Shown here: one piece after another, positions 5,808-17,627 of the stretch | How positions within the stretch are numbered: the first letter of the stretch is position 1 | Layout: the number at the start of each line of letters is the position of its first letter | Assembly (NCBI GenBank): GCA_003220435.1 | Contig: QHSL01000059.1 | Span: 96,077-160,076, forward strand | From: Candidatus Rokuibacteriota bacterium | Lineage (GTDB): Bacteria; Methylomirabilota; Methylomirabilia; Rokubacteriales; CSP1-6 | Direction of reading: 5' to 3' | Length of the DNA stretch: 64,000 nucleotides | Made by a program: the position numbers and the translations under genes | The notes under the pieces: model-generated | Seen by the model: only the letters and a program-made list of their open reading frames with translations | Database searches by the model: none | What the model was told of the DNA's origin: nothing

Positions 5808-8800
5808 CTACGGGATCGTCGTCGCGACGGTGACGACGGAGCCGTCGGCGAAAGACGCCGTCACGGTGAAGGTCTGGCCCGACACGAACGGCGATGGGTT
5901 GTAGTCGGAGGCGAACACGAAGAAGCTCCCGCCGTCGGCGACGGCGAAGTTCACGGTGCCGTTGGCGGCGTTGAGAAGCGCGCCATCGAGGCTGGCGGCG
6001 GCGCCGAGCGCCCAGGGCGACGAGGCCGAGTTGGAGTCCCAGGTGTCGATGCTTCCGCTGCGGCGCAACTCGAGGTTCGTGACCGTTCGCGGACCGCTGC
6101 CGGCCAGGACGGTCACCTGGAAAGTGCCGTCGAGCTTGGTGTCAGGCGCGAAGGCCGAGGAGCTCGCGCCGACCTTGTCGCGCAGCTTGCCAAGGAACGT
6201 CAGGCTGAGCGTCGGCGGCGGCGGCTTCACGGTGAAGCCGGCCGAGCGAACACCCGACTGGCCGTCCGGGTTCGTGACCGTGACGTCGCGCGGGCCCGTT
6301 GTCGCGGTCGAGGCCAGCGCGAGCGCGACCGAGATCTGAGTCGACGAGACGACCATCGTCGAGGTCACGGTGACGCCAGCGCCGAACGAGACGGTCGCCC
6401 CGGGCTGGAAGCTCGCGCCCGCGACCGTCGCGGTGAGCGTGGTTCCCTGAACCGCGCTACTCGGCGTCACGCTCGAAATCGACGGCACGGGCGGCAGCGT
6501 GACGGTCGTGGCGGCCGAAGTCCCGTCGGCGAAGTTCGCGGTGACGGTGAAGCCGGCCCCGCCATAGAACGGCGTGGGGTTGTAGTCCGAAGCGAACACG
6601 TAGAAGCTCCCGCCGTCAGCGACGCCGAAATTCACGGTGCCGTTTCCGGCGTTCAGGAGCGCGGTGTCGAGGCCGGCCCCGGCGCCGAGGGCCCAGGCGC
6701 CCGTCGCCGGGTCGGTGTCCCACGTGTCGATGCTCCCGTTGCGGCGCAGCTCGAGGCGTGCGACCGTCCGCTGACCGCTGCCGACCAGGACGGTCACCTG
6801 GAAGGTGCCGTCGAGCTTGCTGTCAGGCGCGAAGGCCGACGAGCTCTGCCCCACCTTGTCGCGCAACCTGCCCAGGAACGCGAGGCTGAGCGTCGGCGCC
6901 GGGGGCTGGACGGTGAAGCCGTTCGGGCGGACCGCGGACTGGCCGTCGGGGTTCGTGACCGTCACGTCACGCGGGCCGACCGCCGCCCCGCCGGCGATCG
7001 AGAGCGCGACGGAGAGCTGGGTGGCCGAGGCGACCGTCGTCGAGTTGATGGTGATGCCGGCGCCGAACGAGGCGCTCGCGCCTGACTGGAAGCTCGTGCC
7101 TGTCACGGTCACGCTCAGGCTCGCGCCCCGGGTGCCCGCGCTCGGCGCCACGCTCGAGATCGAGGGCATCGCGGGCAGGGTCGCGGTCGCCGTCGCCGTG
7201 GTCCCGTCGGCGAAGCTCGCGGTGACGGTGAAGCTGGCCCCGCCGACGAACGGTGTCGGGTTGTAGTCGGATGCGAACAGCTGGAACGTGCCGCCGTCGG
7301 CGACGGTGAAGCTGACCGTGCCGTTCCCGGCGTTCAGGAGCGCGCTGTCCAGCGTCGCCGCGGCGCCCAGAGCCCAGGGTGACGTGGCGGAGTTGGCGTC
7401 CCAGGCGTCGATGCTGCCGTTACGCCGAAGCTCGAGGCCCGTGACGGTCCGCTGACCGCTGCCGGCCTGGAGCGTGACCCGGAAGGTGCCGTCGAGGGCC
7501 CCGTCGGGCGCGAAGGCGGCGGAGCTCTGGCCCACCTTGTCGCGCAGCCGGCCCAGGAACGCGAGGCCGAGCACGGGCGGCGGCGACTGGACGGTGAAAC
7601 CGTTCGAGCGGATCACCGACTGGCCGTCGGGGTTCGTGACCGTGACGTCACGCGGGCCGACCGTCGCCGCGGTGGCGATCGAGATCGCGACCGAGAGCTG
7701 AGTCGACGAGACGACCGTCGTCGAGCTGATCGTGATCCCGGCGCCGAAGGACGCGGTCGCTCCCGGCTGGAAACCGGTGCCGGCCACGGTCACCGTGACG
7801 TTGGCGCCCTGCGCGCCGATGCTCGGCGTCACGCTCCCGATCGTCGGCATCGCGGGCAGGGTGAGGGACGCGCTGGCGGAGGTCCCGTCGGCGAAGTTCG
7901 CCGTGATCATGAACGCTGCGCCGCTCACGAACGGCGTCGGATTGTAGTCGGAGGCGAACACGTAGAAGGCGCCGCCGTCGGCGACGGCGAAGTTCACGGT
8001 GCCGTTCGCGCCGTTCAGCAGCGCGCTGTCGAGGCTACTCGCGGCGCCCAGCGCCCAGGGAGCCGAGGCGGAGTTCGAATCCCACAGGTCGATGCTTCCG
8101 GTGCGACGCAGCTCGAGGTTCGTGACCGTGCGGCCGCCGCTGCCGGCCTGGAGCGTGACTCGGAAGGTGCCGTCGAGGGCCCCGTCGGGCGCGAAGGCGG
8201 CGGAGCTCTGGCCCACCTTGTCGCGCAGCCGGCCCAGGAACGCGAGGCTGAGCGTCGCCGGCGGGGGCTGCACAGTGAAGCCGCCGGCGCGAATCGCCAG
8301 CTGGCCGTCGGGATTCGTGACCGTGACATCGCGTGGCCCGATCGTCGCGGTCGCATTGATCGCGAGGGTGACCGACAGCTCGGTGGACGACACGACCGTC
8401 ATCGAGCTGACCGTGATGCCGGCGCCGAAGGAGCTGGTCGCTCCGGTCTGGAAGTTCGTGCCGGTCACCGTGACGGTGAGACTCGCGCCCTGCGACCCGA
8501 CGCTCGGCGACACGCTCGAGATCGTGGGGATCGCCGGCAGGTTCAGGCTTGCGCTGGCCGACGTCCCGTCCGCGAAGTTGGCGGTCAGCGAGAAGGCCAT
8601 CCCGGTCGTGAACGGCGAGGGGTTCAGGTCAGACGCGAACAAGAAGAATGTCCCGCCGTCGGCGACGGGGAAGTTCACGGCCCCGTTCGATCCGTTCAGG
8701 AGCGCGCCGTCCAGGCCCGACGTCGCGCCCAGGGCCCAGTAGGCCGTCGCGGAGTTGGAGTCCCAGATATTGATGCTGCCGGCCTGGCGCAGCTCGACGC

Positions 8801-9210
8801 TGGTGACCGTTCGGGGCCAGATCCCGCCCTGCACGGTGACCCGGAAGGTGCCGTCGAGCGCGCCGTCCGGGGCGAAGGCCACGGAGCTCTGGCCGACCTT
8901 GTCGCGCAGCTTGCCCAGGTACGCCAGGCTCATCGTCGGCGGCGGCGGCACGACCGCGAACGCGCCCGCGCGGGTACCGACCTGCCCGCCGGGATTCGTG
9001 ACCGTGACGTCGCGCGGCCCGACCGCCGCGGTGCTCGCGATCGCGAGGGCGATCGAAAGCTGGGTGGGCGAGACGACCGTGGTCGAGTTGACCGTGACGC
9101 CGGCGCCGAACGCGGCCGTCGCCTCCGGCTGGAAGTTGATGCCGTTGACCGTCACGGTGAGGCCCGTGCCCACCGTCCCGCGCGCCGGCGAGACGCTCTT
9201 GATGATCGGC
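5808..9210 (-). repeat. five in-frame tandem coding repeats of about 680 bp (about 227 aa)
   Basis: The motif encoding GSI(D/N)xWDxxxAxxxWALGA recurs at about 6040, 6720, 7400, 8080 and 8760; each unit has IPT (PxIxSVxPSxGxxGxxLTVTVxGxxFQ) plus FLGKLRDKVGQSSxAFAPD... Confidence 0.9.
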
Positions 9211-10619
9211 GCACCCGGGTTGAGAAGGTCGCTCAGCGCGAAGTCGACCTGGATCCGCGGCCGGGTGGTGCCGGTGGAGGCTCGCTGGTCCGCGATCATC
9301 ACCCCGGTGTCGCTGAGGGCCTGAAGGATTTCGTCGACGGTCGCGGTCGGCTTTGCTTGTTTCAGGATGGCCCACGCGCCGGTGACGTGCGGAGCCGCCA
9401 TCGACGTCCCGCTCGCGATCACGAAGACGTCGCCGGGGTACGCGGAGATAATGCTGTCGCCGGGTGCCAGCAGGGACAGGAACGGTGCGACGTTGGAGAA
9501 GTCGGCGACCTGGTCGTCCTTCGTCGTCGCGCCCACGCTCACGGCGCTGGAGACGCAGGCCGGCGCGCTGATCTGGTCGGTCGCGCCGTCGTTGCCCGAG
9601 GCCACGACGGTCGCGATGCCCGCGGCGCGCAGGTTGTCGATGAACGGCTTGTAGGGCTCGTCGTCACAGGACGCGCTGAACAGCCCGCCGCCGAGGCTCA
9701 TGTTGACCGCGGCGAAGGCGTGGATCGTCCGCAGGGCGTAGACGCGATCGAGGGCGGCGAGGATGTCGGAGGTGTAGGCGCCGAGGCACGGCGGCGCGAA
9801 GCCGCAATCGAAGAACCCGTTGATCTGGGAAAAGACCTGGACCGCCATGATCGACGCGCCGCGGCCGACGCCCCAGATGGCCTCGCCCATGGGCGTTCCG
9901 TTTCCAGCGGCGATGCCGGCGACGTGGGTGCCGTGCCAGCAGCCTTCCAACTCGAGCGGGCAGTTCACCGCGGCCCCCGGACCGATCTGCTGCTCGGCGC
10001 CGCTCGGGCAGAGCGTCGTGCTCGCCGCGCCGTCCGTGGTCGAGTAGCACGCCTCTTCGACGACCTTGCCGGCCAGGAACGCGTGCGACGAGTCGACGCC
10101 GCTGTCGATCACCGCCACGACCATCCCGGTGCCGTCGAATCCCTGAGCCCAGGCCTGGTCGGCGCCGATGAGCGGGACGCTGTCCACGAGGACCGGCTTG
10201 TGGATCCGGTCCTCGATCACACGCTTGACCAGGAACCTCGCCGCCTCCAATTCCTGTAAACCGTTCGGGCCGACGCGAAGGGCGATCAGCGGTGTCGCCG
10301 CGTACCGGCGAAGCACGCGATGCGGATGCGTCGACAGCCGGTTCAGCAGACGCGACGTGGCGTCGGCGATCTCCTTCCGGAACGCGGGCCGCGCGTTCGG
10401 CGCGACGCTGCTCTCGGCGATGCGGCCCGAGGGGAGTAAGAGCTCGACGAGCACGCGCACCTCGCCCTCGGCCAGCGCGCGGTCGTAGATCCTGGTCGGC
10501 ACCACGCGATACGCGTCGTCGGCCGGCGCCGCGAGGGCCCGTGCGGGAACGATGACGCCGAGCAACAGCAGGCTTGCGGCAAGGAGCGGACGCATCGCGA
10601 GCGCGGGTCGCCCTGACAT
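5808..10619 (-). CDS. secreted S8 (subtilisin) family serine peptidase with five tandem IPT/TIG + unknown-domain repeats
   Basis: Catalytic triad motifs VVAVIDSGVDSSH, HGTHVAGIAAGNG, GTSMAAPHVTGA; propeptide; signal peptide from MSGRPALAMRPLLAASLLLLG. ORF extends upstream to 10727. Confidence 0.9.
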   Translation of the reverse strand: MSGRPALAMRPLLAASLLLLGVIVPARALAAPADDAYRVVPTRIYDRALAEGEVRVLVELLLPSGRIAESSVAPNARPAFRKEIADATSRLLNRLSTHPHRVLRRYAATPLIALRVGPNGLQELEAARFLVKRVIEDRIHKPVLVDSVPLIGADQAWAQGFDGTGMVVAVIDSGVDSSHAFLAGKVVEEACYSTTDGAASTTLCPSGAEQQIGPGAAVNCPLELEGCWHGTHVAGIAAGNGTPMGEAIWGVGRGASIMAVQVFSQINGFFDCGFAPPCLGAYTSDILAALDRVYALRTIHAFAAVNMSLGGGLFSASCDDEPYKPFIDNLRAAGIATVVASGNDGATDQISAPACVSSAVSVGATTKDDQVADFSNVAPFLSLLAPGDSIISAYPGDVFVIASGTSMAAPHVTGAWAILKQAKPTATVDEILQALSDTGVMIADQRASTGTTRPRIQVDFALSDLLNPGAPIIKSVSPARGTVGTGLTVTVNGINFQPEATAAFGAGVTVNSTTVVSPTQLSIALAIASTAAVGPRDVTVTNPGGQVGTRAGAFAVVPPPPTMSLAYLGKLRDKVGQSSVAFAPDGALDGTFRVTVQGGIWPRTVTSVELRQAGSINIWDSNSATAYWALGATSGLDGALLNGSNGAVNFPVADGGTFFLFASDLNPSPFTTGMAFSLTANFADGTSASASLNLPAIPTISSVSPSVGSQGASLTVTVTGTNFQTGATSSFGAGITVSSMTVVSSTELSVTLAINATATIGPRDVTVTNPDGQLAIRAGGFTVQPPPATLSLAFLGRLRDKVGQSSAAFAPDGALDGTFRVTLQAGSGGRTVTNLELRRTGSIDLWDSNSASAPWALGAASSLDSALLNGANGTVNFAVADGGAFYVFASDYNPTPFVSGAAFMITANFADGTSASASLTLPAMPTIGSVTPSIGAQGANVTVTVAGTGFQPGATASFGAGITISSTTVVSSTQLSVAISIATAATVGPRDVTVTNPDGQSVIRSNGFTVQSPPPVLGLAFLGRLRDKVGQSSAAFAPDGALDGTFRVTLQAGSGQRTVTGLELRRNGSIDAWDANSATSPWALGAAATLDSALLNAGNGTVSFTVADGGTFQLFASDYNPTPFVGGASFTVTASFADGTTATATATLPAMPSISSVAPSAGTRGASLSVTVTGTSFQSGASASFGAGITINSTTVASATQLSVALSIAGGAAVGPRDVTVTNPDGQSAVRPNGFTVQPPAPTLSLAFLGRLRDKVGQSSSAFAPDSKLDGTFQVTVLVGSGQRTVARLELRRNGSIDTWDTDPATGAWALGAGAGLDTALLNAGNGTVNFGVADGGSFYVFASDYNPTPFYGGAGFTVTANFADGTSAATTVTLPPVPSISSVTPSSAVQGTTLTATVAGASFQPGATVSFGAGVTVTSTMVVSSTQISVALALASTATTGPRDVTVTNPDGQSGVRSAGFTVKPPPPTLSLTFLGKLRDKVGASSSAFAPDTKLDGTFQVTVLAGSGPRTVTNLELRRSGSIDTWDSNSASSPWALGAAASLDGALLNAANGTVNFAVADGGSFFVFASDYNPSPFVSGQTFTVTASFADGSVVTVATTIP

Positions 10620-10736
10620 GCCGGCTATAGTGGGCAACGGTCGTGCCATCCGCAAGACCCACAAACGAAAAGGGTTTCCGTAAATCAGGGGTGACGGTTT
10701 GGCAGCCCGGGTGCCCCGGGGCGTCACTCGGCCCGA

Positions 10737-13824: not shown

Positions 13825-15270
13825 TCAGGCTCCGCGCACGGGATAGCTCGGCGGGACGATGTCGTCGAGAGGGCGAGCGCTCCAGTGCCACTGGGGGACG
13901 GCGTGCCATAGACGCTCGCCTTCGGCTTGGACTGAGCGAAGGAGCGCGGCTTCGTCGATGCGCAGGGCGCGGCCGTTCTCGACGAGGGTCTGGCCGTCGA
14001 CGATGACGGTGTCGATGTCGCGGCCGCTGCCGCACTCGACGAGCGACTTGATCGGATCGTGCACGGCGCCGTAGTGCATCTGGAGCAGGTCGACGACGAT
14101 GATGTCGGCCTTCGCCCCCGGCGCCAGCCGACCGAGGTCGTCGCGCCCGAGATGGCGCGCGCCGCCGAGTGTAGCGGCGTCGAACACGTCCTGCGGCCGC
14201 CCGACGCGGAAGCTCTCGTCGGCCATCCGGCACATCAGCGCGGCCCAGCGCATCTCGTGGACGAGATCTTGAGGATAGGTGTCGGTGCCGAGAGCCAGAT
14301 TGATCCCGAGGGCGCGGTAGCGCTCGAACGACTCGAACTTCACGCCCATCTTGGCGTACTTGTACGGCGCGTGCACGACGGTGACGCCGCTGTCGGCCAG
14401 CAGCTTCAGGTCGTCCCCGTAGGGGTAGTGGCACCAGGAGTGGTCGTTGTGGAACACGCAGTGGCCGAGCCCGGTGCGCGGCTTGAGGAAGCCGATCGAG
14501 TGCAGGAGCTGGATCGGTGTCTGGCCGTGCTGCTCGAGGATGTGGTGGAACTCGCGCTGGTTCATCGCAGCGTGCAACTGCATCGGCACGCCCAGATCGT
14601 CGGCCCACCGGCGCGCGTGCCGCAGGAGCTCAGGCGTGCACGTGTCGAGCTGGCCCGGGTAGAGCATCGTCCGGATGCGACCGTCGTAGGCGCCGTCGTA
14701 CTCCTTGATGTACGACACCGCGCGCTCGAGACCGGCCAGGCCGGCGGCCTCGTCCCACTCCCAGACGATCCGGCTCCCGTCGAAGGCGTAGCCCGCCGAG
14801 CGGAACGCCGGGCCGAGGTAGGCCCGAACTCCGAGCTCGCCCGCGATCTTCGTGAACGGCGCCGCGCCGCCGGGCATCGTGCCGACGTCCAGGATCGTCG
14901 TGGAGCCGGCGCGGAGCGCAGCCCAAAGGCCGTAGGTGCCGGCGAGATCGGCGCGGTCGCCCATGCGGGGCGGGGCGGCGCCGCGACGAGGCGCGACGTA
15001 GCCGACGAAGTTGCTCGCGAAGTAGTCGGCCTTCAGCCCGTCGAGGAACACCGACTGGGTCGCGTTGGTGGCGGCGTGCAGGTGACAGTTGATCAAGCCC
15101 GGCGAGACGAGCTTGCCAGCGGCGTCGACGCGCCGGTCGACGGTGCCGGTGAACGCGCGCCCGACATGGGTCACGCGATCGTTCTCGAAGACCACGCATC
15201 CGTTCGGGATCAGCTCGTGTCCGTTGGCGCCGTAGCCGACCACCCAGCCGCCCTGGATCAAGGTTCTCAT
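13825..15270 (-). CDS. amidohydrolase family protein (cytosine deaminase/chlorohydrolase type)
   Basis: GKLVSPGLINCHLHAATN metal-binding motif, GHCVFHNDHSW, GTDTYPQDLVHEMRWA. Confidence 0.88.
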   Translation of the reverse strand: MRTLIQGGWVVGYGANGHELIPNGCVVFENDRVTHVGRAFTGTVDRRVDAAGKLVSPGLINCHLHAATNATQSVFLDGLKADYFASNFVGYVAPRRGAAPPRMGDRADLAGTYGLWAALRAGSTTILDVGTMPGGAAPFTKIAGELGVRAYLGPAFRSAGYAFDGSRIVWEWDEAAGLAGLERAVSYIKEYDGAYDGRIRTMLYPGQLDTCTPELLRHARRWADDLGVPMQLHAAMNQREFHHILEQHGQTPIQLLHSIGFLKPRTGLGHCVFHNDHSWCHYPYGDDLKLLADSGVTVVHAPYKYAKMGVKFESFERYRALGINLALGTDTYPQDLVHEMRWAALMCRMADESFRVGRPQDVFDAATLGGARHLGRDDLGRLAPGAKADIIVVDLLQMHYGAVHDPIKSLVECGSGRDIDTVIVDGQTLVENGRALRIDEAALLRSVQAEGERLWHAVPQWHWSARPLDDIVPPSYPVRGA

Positions 15271-16096: not shown

Positions 16097-16630
16097 TTAC
16101 CCTCGGGCGAATCCCTGAGGCGCCAGGTCGAACGCCTTGGCGAACTTGCTCGCGAACGTCTGGTATCCCACGATGAACGTCAGCTCGACGACCTCGCGCT
16201 CCGAGAAGTGCTCGCGCAGCCGGACAACGCACTCGTCGGTCACGGCCTGGTCATTGCGCGTGATGCGCTCGGCGTACTCGAGCGCCGCCTTCTCCCGCGC
16301 CGAGAACCGGTCGCTCTCCCGGTAGCGCTCGAGCTCGGCGAGCTTCTCGTTGGGGATTCCCACCCGCGCGCCGCCGGCGCGTCGGATGTCGATTCAATAT
16401 GCGCTGCCGTAGAGCGCCGCGACGTGCACGTTGAGCAGCGCCCGGAGCGTGGCCTCGATGCGGCCGGCCCATTCCAGCGCCGCGTAGAGCCCGCCGAGCC
16501 CCAGCATGAGCACGACCCGGTGGGCCATGATCCGCTGCGGCGTGGGCACCTGGCCGAACATCGCCTTGCCGATCCCGTAGAACACGCGGGTTGCGAGCCC
16601 CGGCCGTTCGACCTCGCTGATCCTCGTCAT
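16097..16630 (-). CDS. AhpD-like/carboxymuconolactone decarboxylase family protein with in-frame TGA (candidate selenoprotein)
   Basis: MTRISEVERPG...LLNVHVAALYGSAY-[TGA 16396-16394]-IDIRRAGGARVGIPNEKLAELERYRESDRFSAREKAALEYAERITR...; both halves are in one frame, with TGA at the position of the second Cys of the family CxxC(I/L/V)DI motif. Confidence 0.7.
16364..16385 (-). promoter_or_regulatory. putative bacterial SECIS-like hairpin downstream of the TGA
   Basis: Minus strand CCG-A-CGCGCC-GGC-GGCGCG-CGG begins 9 nt after TGA; apical loop is 19-21 nt after TGA and starts with G. Confidence 0.4.
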
Positions 16631-16697
16631 GAGTGTCCTCCTCGCGTCGTGGTCGGTTGTGGGGGCGCGTCGCTCGTATGGTACCCTGGGCCACCTC

Positions 16698-17627
16698 ATG
16701 GCGGCCGGCGGACGCGTCGGAGCGAATGGAGCGCTGGAGCGCCGGCGTCTCGGCCGCACCGACATCGTGGTCAGCGTGCTCGGCTTCGGCGGCTCCGAAA
16801 TCGGTTACCAGAGCGTGAGCGCCCGCACCGTCGCCCGCCTGCTCGGCGGCGCCCTCGACGCCGGCCTGAACGCGATCGACACCGCCGAGTGCTACGGGGA
16901 CAGCGAGATCCTGATCGGCAAGGCGATCGGCTCGCGCCGGCGGGAGGTCTATCTGTTCACCAAGTGCGGGCACGCCGGCGGCTGGGGGCGCGCTGACTGG
17001 CGGCGGGCGCCGCTGCTCACGAGCATCGAGCGCAGCCTGCGTCGCCTCGCCACCGACCACGTCGACCTCATCCAGCTCCACAGCTGCTCGCTCGACCAGC
17101 TACGCCGCGGCGAGGCGATCGAGGCCCTCGCGCGCGCGCGCGAGCGCGGCTGGGCGCGCTACATCGGCTACAGCGGTGACGGCGCGGCGGCGCGCTACGC
17201 AATCGAGTGCGGGCGCTTCGACACGCTGCAGACCTCGATCAGCATCGCCGATCAGGAGGCTGTCGAGCTCACGCTCCCACTGGCGGTCGCCCGCCAGATG
17301 GGCGTGATCGCGAAGCGGCCACTGGCCAACGTAGCGTGGCGCTACGAGCGGAAGCCCGCCGAGTCGTACTACGAGACCTACTGGTCACGCCTGCGGAGGC
17401 TGGACTATCGATTCTTGAAGTCGCCCGACACGGCCGTCGCCACCGCGCTGCGCTTCACGCTGAGCGCGCCTGGAGTCCACACCGCGATCGTCGGGACCAC
17501 GAAGCCGGAGCGATGGCTGGAGAACGCGGCGCTGCTGCGCGACGGCGCCCTGGCGCCCGCCGAATTCGAGCGGATCCGCGCGCGCTGGCGCGAGGTCGCC
17601 GACGCGTCGTGGGACGGCCAGACCTGA
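16698..17627 (+). CDS. aldo/keto reductase
   Basis: RRLGRTDIVVSVLGFGGSEIG, LNAIDTAECYGDSE, VDLIQLHSC; AKR motifs. Confidence 0.9.
   Translation: MAAGGRVGANGALERRRLGRTDIVVSVLGFGGSEIGYQSVSARTVARLLGGALDAGLNAIDTAECYGDSEILIGKAIGSRRREVYLFTKCGHAGGWGRADWRRAPLLTSIERSLRRLATDHVDLIQLHSCSLDQLRRGEAIEALARARERGWARYIGYSGDGAAARYAIECGRFDTLQTSISIADQEAVELTLPLAVARQMGVIAKRPLANVAWRYERKPAESYYETYWSRLRRLDYRFLKSPDTAVATALRFTLSAPGVHTAIVGTTKPERWLENAALLRDGALAPAEFERIRARWREVADASWDGQT

Follow-up and report, generated by a model that had tools for sequence, protein, structure and literature searches.

A predicted AhpD-fold selenoprotein with a single selenocysteine and a relocated lone cysteine in Candidatus Rokuibacteriota

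Described relatives and the gene in the window

Selenoproteins related to AhpD and carboxymuconolactone decarboxylase (CMD) have been established since 2005, include the Sargasso Sea and GOS families, and fall under TIGR01926/PF02627; all those listed in the reports are of the CxxU type (PMC1088965, PMC2398784, PMC13188914). An earlier sequence-only reading of the locus described here had called AhpD-like selenoproteins an established bacterial group, and this literature bears it out. The proteins are abundant in environmental genomes, and their function is not established. In the AhpD relay, the participating residues in PA0269 numbering are Glu36, Cys48, Tyr50, Cys51, and His55 (PMC3141380). 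The debrominase Bmp8 (6ohi, 6ohj), from a bromopyrrole cluster, has the same fold with a single Cys nucleophile. A further CMD family member, TTHA0727 of T. thermophilus, is presumably a Cys-type protein and not a selenoprotein. By its description, this protein has Ser in place of the resolving Cys (PMC3141380), as does ours.

The gene lies on the minus strand of a 64,000-nt stretch of contig QHSL01000059.1 (the window), part of a 5.4-Mb metagenome-assembled genome (MAG) of a soil bacterium, with 147 contigs and 95.5% completeness. From 16630 to 16097, 177 codons run from ATG to TAA with the TGA at 16396-16394 as their sole interruption, in the context ALYGSAY-U-IDIRR, where U is selenocysteine (Sec). 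The sequence-only reading had joined two ORF calls in one frame into a protein of about 177 residues, and a single TGA is indeed all that separates them. An AGGAGG-like site stands before the same ATG in nearly all orthologues, and the start position is likewise common to them. The mechanical ORF start at 16765 is therefore too early, and that call too long, the real start being the ATG at 16630 behind GAGGAGG, a strong ribosome-binding site. Genes of this kind end up split or truncated in ordinary gene calling. The features of the gene are as follows.

16097..16630, minus strand: coding sequence of the predicted mono-Sec CMD/AhpD-fold protein, 177 aa with Sec79; from sequence and translation, with start, frame, and TGA common to orthologues
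16628..16630, minus strand: ATG start codon of this coding sequence
16097..16099, minus strand: TAA stop codon of this coding sequence
16637..16643, minus strand: Shine-Dalgarno sequence GAGGAGG, 6 nt before the ATG, read from the sequence
16394..16396, minus strand: in-frame TGA, predicted Sec79, at the nucleophile column of AhpD, Bmp8, and PA0269

To look for TGA-bridged coding signal across the entire window, we took third- minus second-position GC on either side of each TGA. The TGA at 16396-16394 gave 0.48 before and 0.47 after, elsewhere in the window the values did not exceed 0.35 before or 0.43 after, and no other TGA-bridged frame in the scan was as convincing. The TGA-bridged frame is far beyond chance.

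Compared with the described CxxU selenoproteins, the protein is alike in its CMD/AhpD fold, in having Sec at the second Cys position of CxxC, and in the bacterial SECIS (bSECIS) after the UGA; it differs in belonging to a clade, here called mono-Sec, that lacks the first Cys (S/A/T/V instead) and has an invariant Cys134. The clade would thus be a variant that has one Sec and a relocated lone Cys and lacks the CxxU motif; we found no description of it in the literature searched.

Decoding of the in-frame TGA

Full-length orthologues are present in 19 of the 95 genomes of the phylum, and two further genomes hold fragments that end before the TGA site. All 19 full-length sequences retain the TGA, so that the conservation among relatives, which the sequence-only reading proposed as a test, holds wherever a relative covers the site. 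At E ≤ 1e-30, no Cys orthologue of the mono-Sec clade was found in the 95 genomes, and the orthologues are set apart from the next clade by a score gap of 293 vs 137 bits. Comparison of eight congeneric genes gives a dN/dS of 0.23 for the part ahead of the TGA and 0.30 for the part beyond it, the latter value arguing that the downstream part is translated and under selection; by this estimate, purifying selection acts on the codons on either side.

The named relatives are mostly Candidatus Rokuibacteriota, plus one NC10 genome. Outside the phylum, the scan, which relies on short conserved peptides and may miss distant relatives, returned only two other titles. One of these contigs (L057, VAYX01000028.1), titled Actinobacteria, matches a Rokubacterial contig (L058) from a similarly named soil sample at 98.8% identity over 5.6 kb and is probably misbinned. 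The other (L063, JACPFL010000096.1), titled Deltaproteobacteria, carries a mono-Sec gene together with the kinase/regulator pair described below and has about 79% DNA identity to the Rokubacterial locus L070, which may reflect transfer or misbinning.

The Sec machinery for which the sequence-only reading proposed a search is found in the source genome: a tRNA-Sec with anticodon UCA, selA (568 bits) adjoining selB (352 bits), both over cut-off, and selD (341 bits). Of the 19 MAGs with an orthologue, 17 have a selB above threshold, but so do 84 of the 95 genomes overall, which makes co-occurrence with the orthologue a weak test. The selD gene (L050, G000:C100:66727-67671) has one in-frame TGA, and the SelD of this genome is probably itself a selenoprotein, as is known from other bacteria. 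Besides this gene, at least four others of the CMD family in the source genome have a TGA in frame at the Sec column (CPFU, CRYU, CEYU, and CHYU), at loci L045 (G000:C108), L047 (C16), L048 (C32), and L049 (C130); read in this way, the genome has an expansion of predicted CMD-type selenoproteins.

Downstream of the TGA lies a hairpin.

16367..16381, minus strand: putative bacterial SECIS 18 nt after the TGA, stem CGCGCC/GGCGCG (16381-16376 with 16372-16367), loop GGC (16375-16373)

The bSECIS model specifies a loop of 3-9 nt, a stem of 4-16 bp, a G in the first two loop positions, a distance of 16-37 nt from the UGA, and an MFE ≤ -7.5 (PMC13188914). The putative element fits this model with its 3-nt loop, 6 bp, G at loop position 1, and 18-nt spacing. 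Its MFE is -22.4 kcal/mol, that of the orthologues' 48-nt stretch ranges from -15 to -24 kcal/mol, and the folding energy z of -1.75 is not extreme given the GC-rich sequence. Within the 48 nt from the TGA, the hairpin is paired in 19/19 sequences (C16-C21 with G25-G30, loop G22-N-N), and RNAalifold recovered it unprompted. A compensatory change occurs at pair 17-29 (AU in 10, GC in 7, GU in 2), the only pair that varies on both sides, so that the covariation amounts to few events. In the orthologues, Arg84 goes with Ala88 and His84 with Val88, a covariation that the hairpin accounts for and a case in which the protein sequence is shaped by a signal in the mRNA. Independently, synonymous variation is at its lowest among 158 gene windows over the nine codons that follow the TGA (0.14 vs a mean of 0.39), coinciding with the hairpin. 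An Rfam scan of the window returned no family match.

The reading of UGA 16396-16394 as Sec79, aided by the downstream hairpin and by SelA, SelB, tRNA-Sec, and SelD, is strongly supported, and the proposal of the sequence-only reading that the gene is an AhpD-like selenoprotein candidate draws support from TGA conservation, the Sec machinery, and the Cys in homologues. The frame is interrupted under table 11, as it would be if the TGA were a true stop between two ORFs or the mark of a decaying pseudogene; against this stand the TGA in 19/19 orthologues, the dN/dS of 0.30 beyond it, the conserved SECIS, and the complete Sec machinery, and on the conservation and dN/dS we take this reading, of very low probability, to be ruled out. 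An error of sequencing or base calling is untenable, as the same TGA is present in 19 genome assemblies. Recoding of UGA as Cys or another residue without selenium occurs in a few lineages. It would agree with the Cys that homologues carry at the TGA column; however, with tRNA-Sec (UCA), selA, selB, and selD present and a SECIS-like hairpin conserved, such recoding is scarcely probable here.

Fold, active-site columns and the lone cysteine

The mono-Sec protein scores 33.5 bits against Pfam CMD PF02627 (cut-off 23), and its best solved relatives by profile are the PA0269/AhpD-like structures 2ijc, 2o4d, and 7xw1, Atu0492 (2gmy), and Bmp8. A structure model of medium confidence (mean pLDDT 74.5) retrieves 2ijc, 7xw1, 2gmy, and 6ohi in Foldseek at probability 1.00, and on this model the protein is an all-helical CMD/AhpD-fold enzyme. 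No signal peptide is evident in it. The TGA column aligns with the second Cys of CxxC in 2ijc/2o4d and with the Cys of Bmp8; the sequence-only reading had suggested looking for Cys at this column in homologues, and PA0269, Atu0492, and Bmp8 all have it. Two further codons bear on the chemistry.

16403..16405, minus strand: Ser76 codon, at the resolving-Cys column of CxxC/CxxU relatives; Ser in 13, Ala in 3, Thr in 2, and Val in 1 of the clade, and Cys in 11/11 of the CxxU clade
16229..16231, minus strand: Cys134 codon, the only Cys of the protein and candidate partner of Sec79; invariant in 19/19

With AhpD of M. tuberculosis and PA0269 of P. aeruginosa (2ijc, 2o4d, 7xw1), the protein shares the helical-hairpin active site and the nucleophile column, and with PA0269 also the Tyr before the nucleophile. 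The alignments place Ala64, Ser76, Tyr78, Sec79, and Arg83 at the relay columns. Of the five relay residues of AhpD, three are thus absent: Ala64, Ser76, and Arg83 stand in for the Glu, the first Cys, and the His, respectively. Ala64 and Arg83 are each found in 18/19 clade members, and the Tyr preceding Sec79 is invariant. As there is no Cys at the first position in any of the 19, CxxC and CxxU motifs are absent from the clade. The SxxU motif of the sequence-only reading stands as regards Sec at the second position and falls as a conserved motif, given the variable first position; judged from the alignment, the resolving Cys is lost and its site drifts in the clade. The term AhpD-like can likewise be kept for the fold, on the CMD match and Foldseek, but not for a canonical AhpD with three of five relay residues gone: "AhpD" names the fold of the protein, not an established function. 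Bmp8, the closest mono-thiol relative of solved structure, is alike in fold, in a single nucleophile after a Tyr, and in a resolving column without Cys; unlike our protein, it has Cys in place of Sec, has no Cys at 134, and belongs to the bromopyrrole cluster.

For all 19 members, the top NCBIfam family is NF053654 GroundWater_YciW, "YciW-related (seleno)protein" (best E 5e-35). The window protein scores 104.5 bits and the CxxU sister-clade member from the same genome 144.1 bits against a cut-off of 310, and by these scores neither is a member of NF053654. Among the matches listed, neither the mono-Sec members nor the one CxxU member scored above the threshold for any NCBIfam seleno-family.

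In 17 of the 19 proteins, Sec79 is the only Sec and Cys134 the only Cys; both residues are invariant in 19/19, and Cys134 is also present in both fragments and in the extra orthologue L063. The CxxU sister clade (11 sequences, NGCPFU-IDIN, one from the same genome) has Leu at 134 in 11/11, as do two more distant relatives. In a maximum-likelihood tree each clade forms one side of a branch, with support of 82/97 for the mono-Sec and 98/97 for the CxxU clade. This pattern of residues would make Cys134 a likelier partner of Sec79 than the Ser76 column. AhpD sites are isolated within the protomer, according to a published remark, and the Cys134 partner might thus come from a neighbouring subunit. 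The loss of the adjacent Cys, together with a different single Cys, suggests an altered redox chemistry.

Gene neighbourhood and candidate chemistry

In the window genus the gene has as neighbours a divergent aldo/keto reductase and, downstream, an amidohydrolase; other genera differ. The amidohydrolase (13825-15270, minus strand) scores 454 bits against a cut-off of 416 for the NCBIfam "chlorohydrolase family protein" and, in those congeneric loci that were examined, lies near the mono-Sec gene. Four genomes from three genera (L070, L073, L074, L075) have, on the same strand and within about 5 kb after the mono-Sec gene, genes for MsrP (471 bits, cut-off 207) and MsrQ (169 bits, cut-off 130), for a thioredoxin-like protein, and for a two-component system of sensor kinase and response regulator. 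A thioredoxin-like protein and a kinase are near the gene in L072, and a kinase, a regulator, and another molybdopterin oxidoreductase in L063. The window genome has its HK-RR-MsrPQ block on the same contig, about 96 kb from the mono-Sec gene. As the window genus lacks MsrPQ neighbours, and so do over half of the other genera, the link to MsrPQ is suggestive and not universal across genera.

Just upstream of the mono-Sec gene in L073, L074, and L075 is a small methionine-rich lipoprotein (MMKKDDGMMKKEG...), two of which gave no match in NCBIfam. It is reminiscent of methionine-rich hypochlorite scavengers; a methionine-rich-peptide system was reportedly described by Melnyk in 2015. MsrP/YedY repairs methionine sulfoxide and has been linked to hypochlorite stress (PMC7464077). 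A clade with one Sec, one other Cys, and msrPQ nearby in several genera offers a direct handle on the substrates of AhpD/CMD-like selenoproteins.

The best overall explanation, which we consider moderately probable, is that the protein is a selenoprotein in which Sec79 would attack an oxidant and Cys134 would resolve it, within a stress response that includes MsrPQ. The Sec79 selenol, at the AhpD nucleophile site beside the invariant Tyr, would attack a hydroperoxide, a reactive-chlorine product, or a similar electrophile. The oxidised Sec79 would then be resolved as a Se-S bond by Cys134, within the subunit or across the oligomer, or else by an external thiol, and a thioredoxin-like reductase would open the Se-S bond. 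The protein would probably act in an oxidative or reactive-chlorine stress response alongside MsrPQ.

A serious rival, though an unlikely one, is a Sec version of a Bmp8-type mono-thiol reductive dehalogenase, in which Sec79 would attack C-Br, C-I, or N-Cl and an external thiol or Cys134 would regenerate the selenol, since in Bmp8 the same fold can reduce carbon-halogen bonds (PDB titles) using one Tyr-Cys nucleophile without a resolving Cys. The match to Bmp8 is significant (sequence E about 1e-11, Foldseek E 7e-4), the resolving column of Bmp8 holds Ala, its nucleophile likewise follows a Tyr (GAMYC vs GSAYU), a crystal structure of its C82A mutant with tribromopyrrole exists (PDB title), and MsrPQ neighbours would suit reactive-chlorine stress (PMC7464077). 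However, no halogenase or organohalide genes were seen adjoining the mono-Sec gene, overall identity to Bmp8 is about 20%, and Bmp8 has His and not Cys aligned at column 134.

Alternatively, the protein could be a 1-Sec peroxidase or adaptor, with Sec79 reducing hydroperoxides, free low-molecular-weight thiols regenerating it, and Cys134 being structural. Sec is a stronger nucleophile than Cys, an advantage where the proton relay is absent; AhpD-fold relatives such as PA0269 are, moreover, weakly peroxidase-active (PMC3141380). The relay Glu and His are missing, however, and the invariance of Cys134 while nearly all other Cys are lost is hard to square with a structural role, which leaves this reading rather improbable. 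The Bmp8 strategy presumably resembles that of iodothyronine deiodinase. By analogy, a single Sec might attack an electrophilic halogen (C-X or N-chloramine) in a deiodinase- or Bmp8-like manner, with the relocated Cys134 resolving it, in a reactive-halogen defence with MsrPQ; we view this as a speculative and doubtful proposal.

Elsewhere in the window, a 1639-aa ORF (5808-10727, minus strand) encodes a subtilisin-like protease followed by several highly similar repeated domain pairs (LRDKVGQSSAAFAPDG...).
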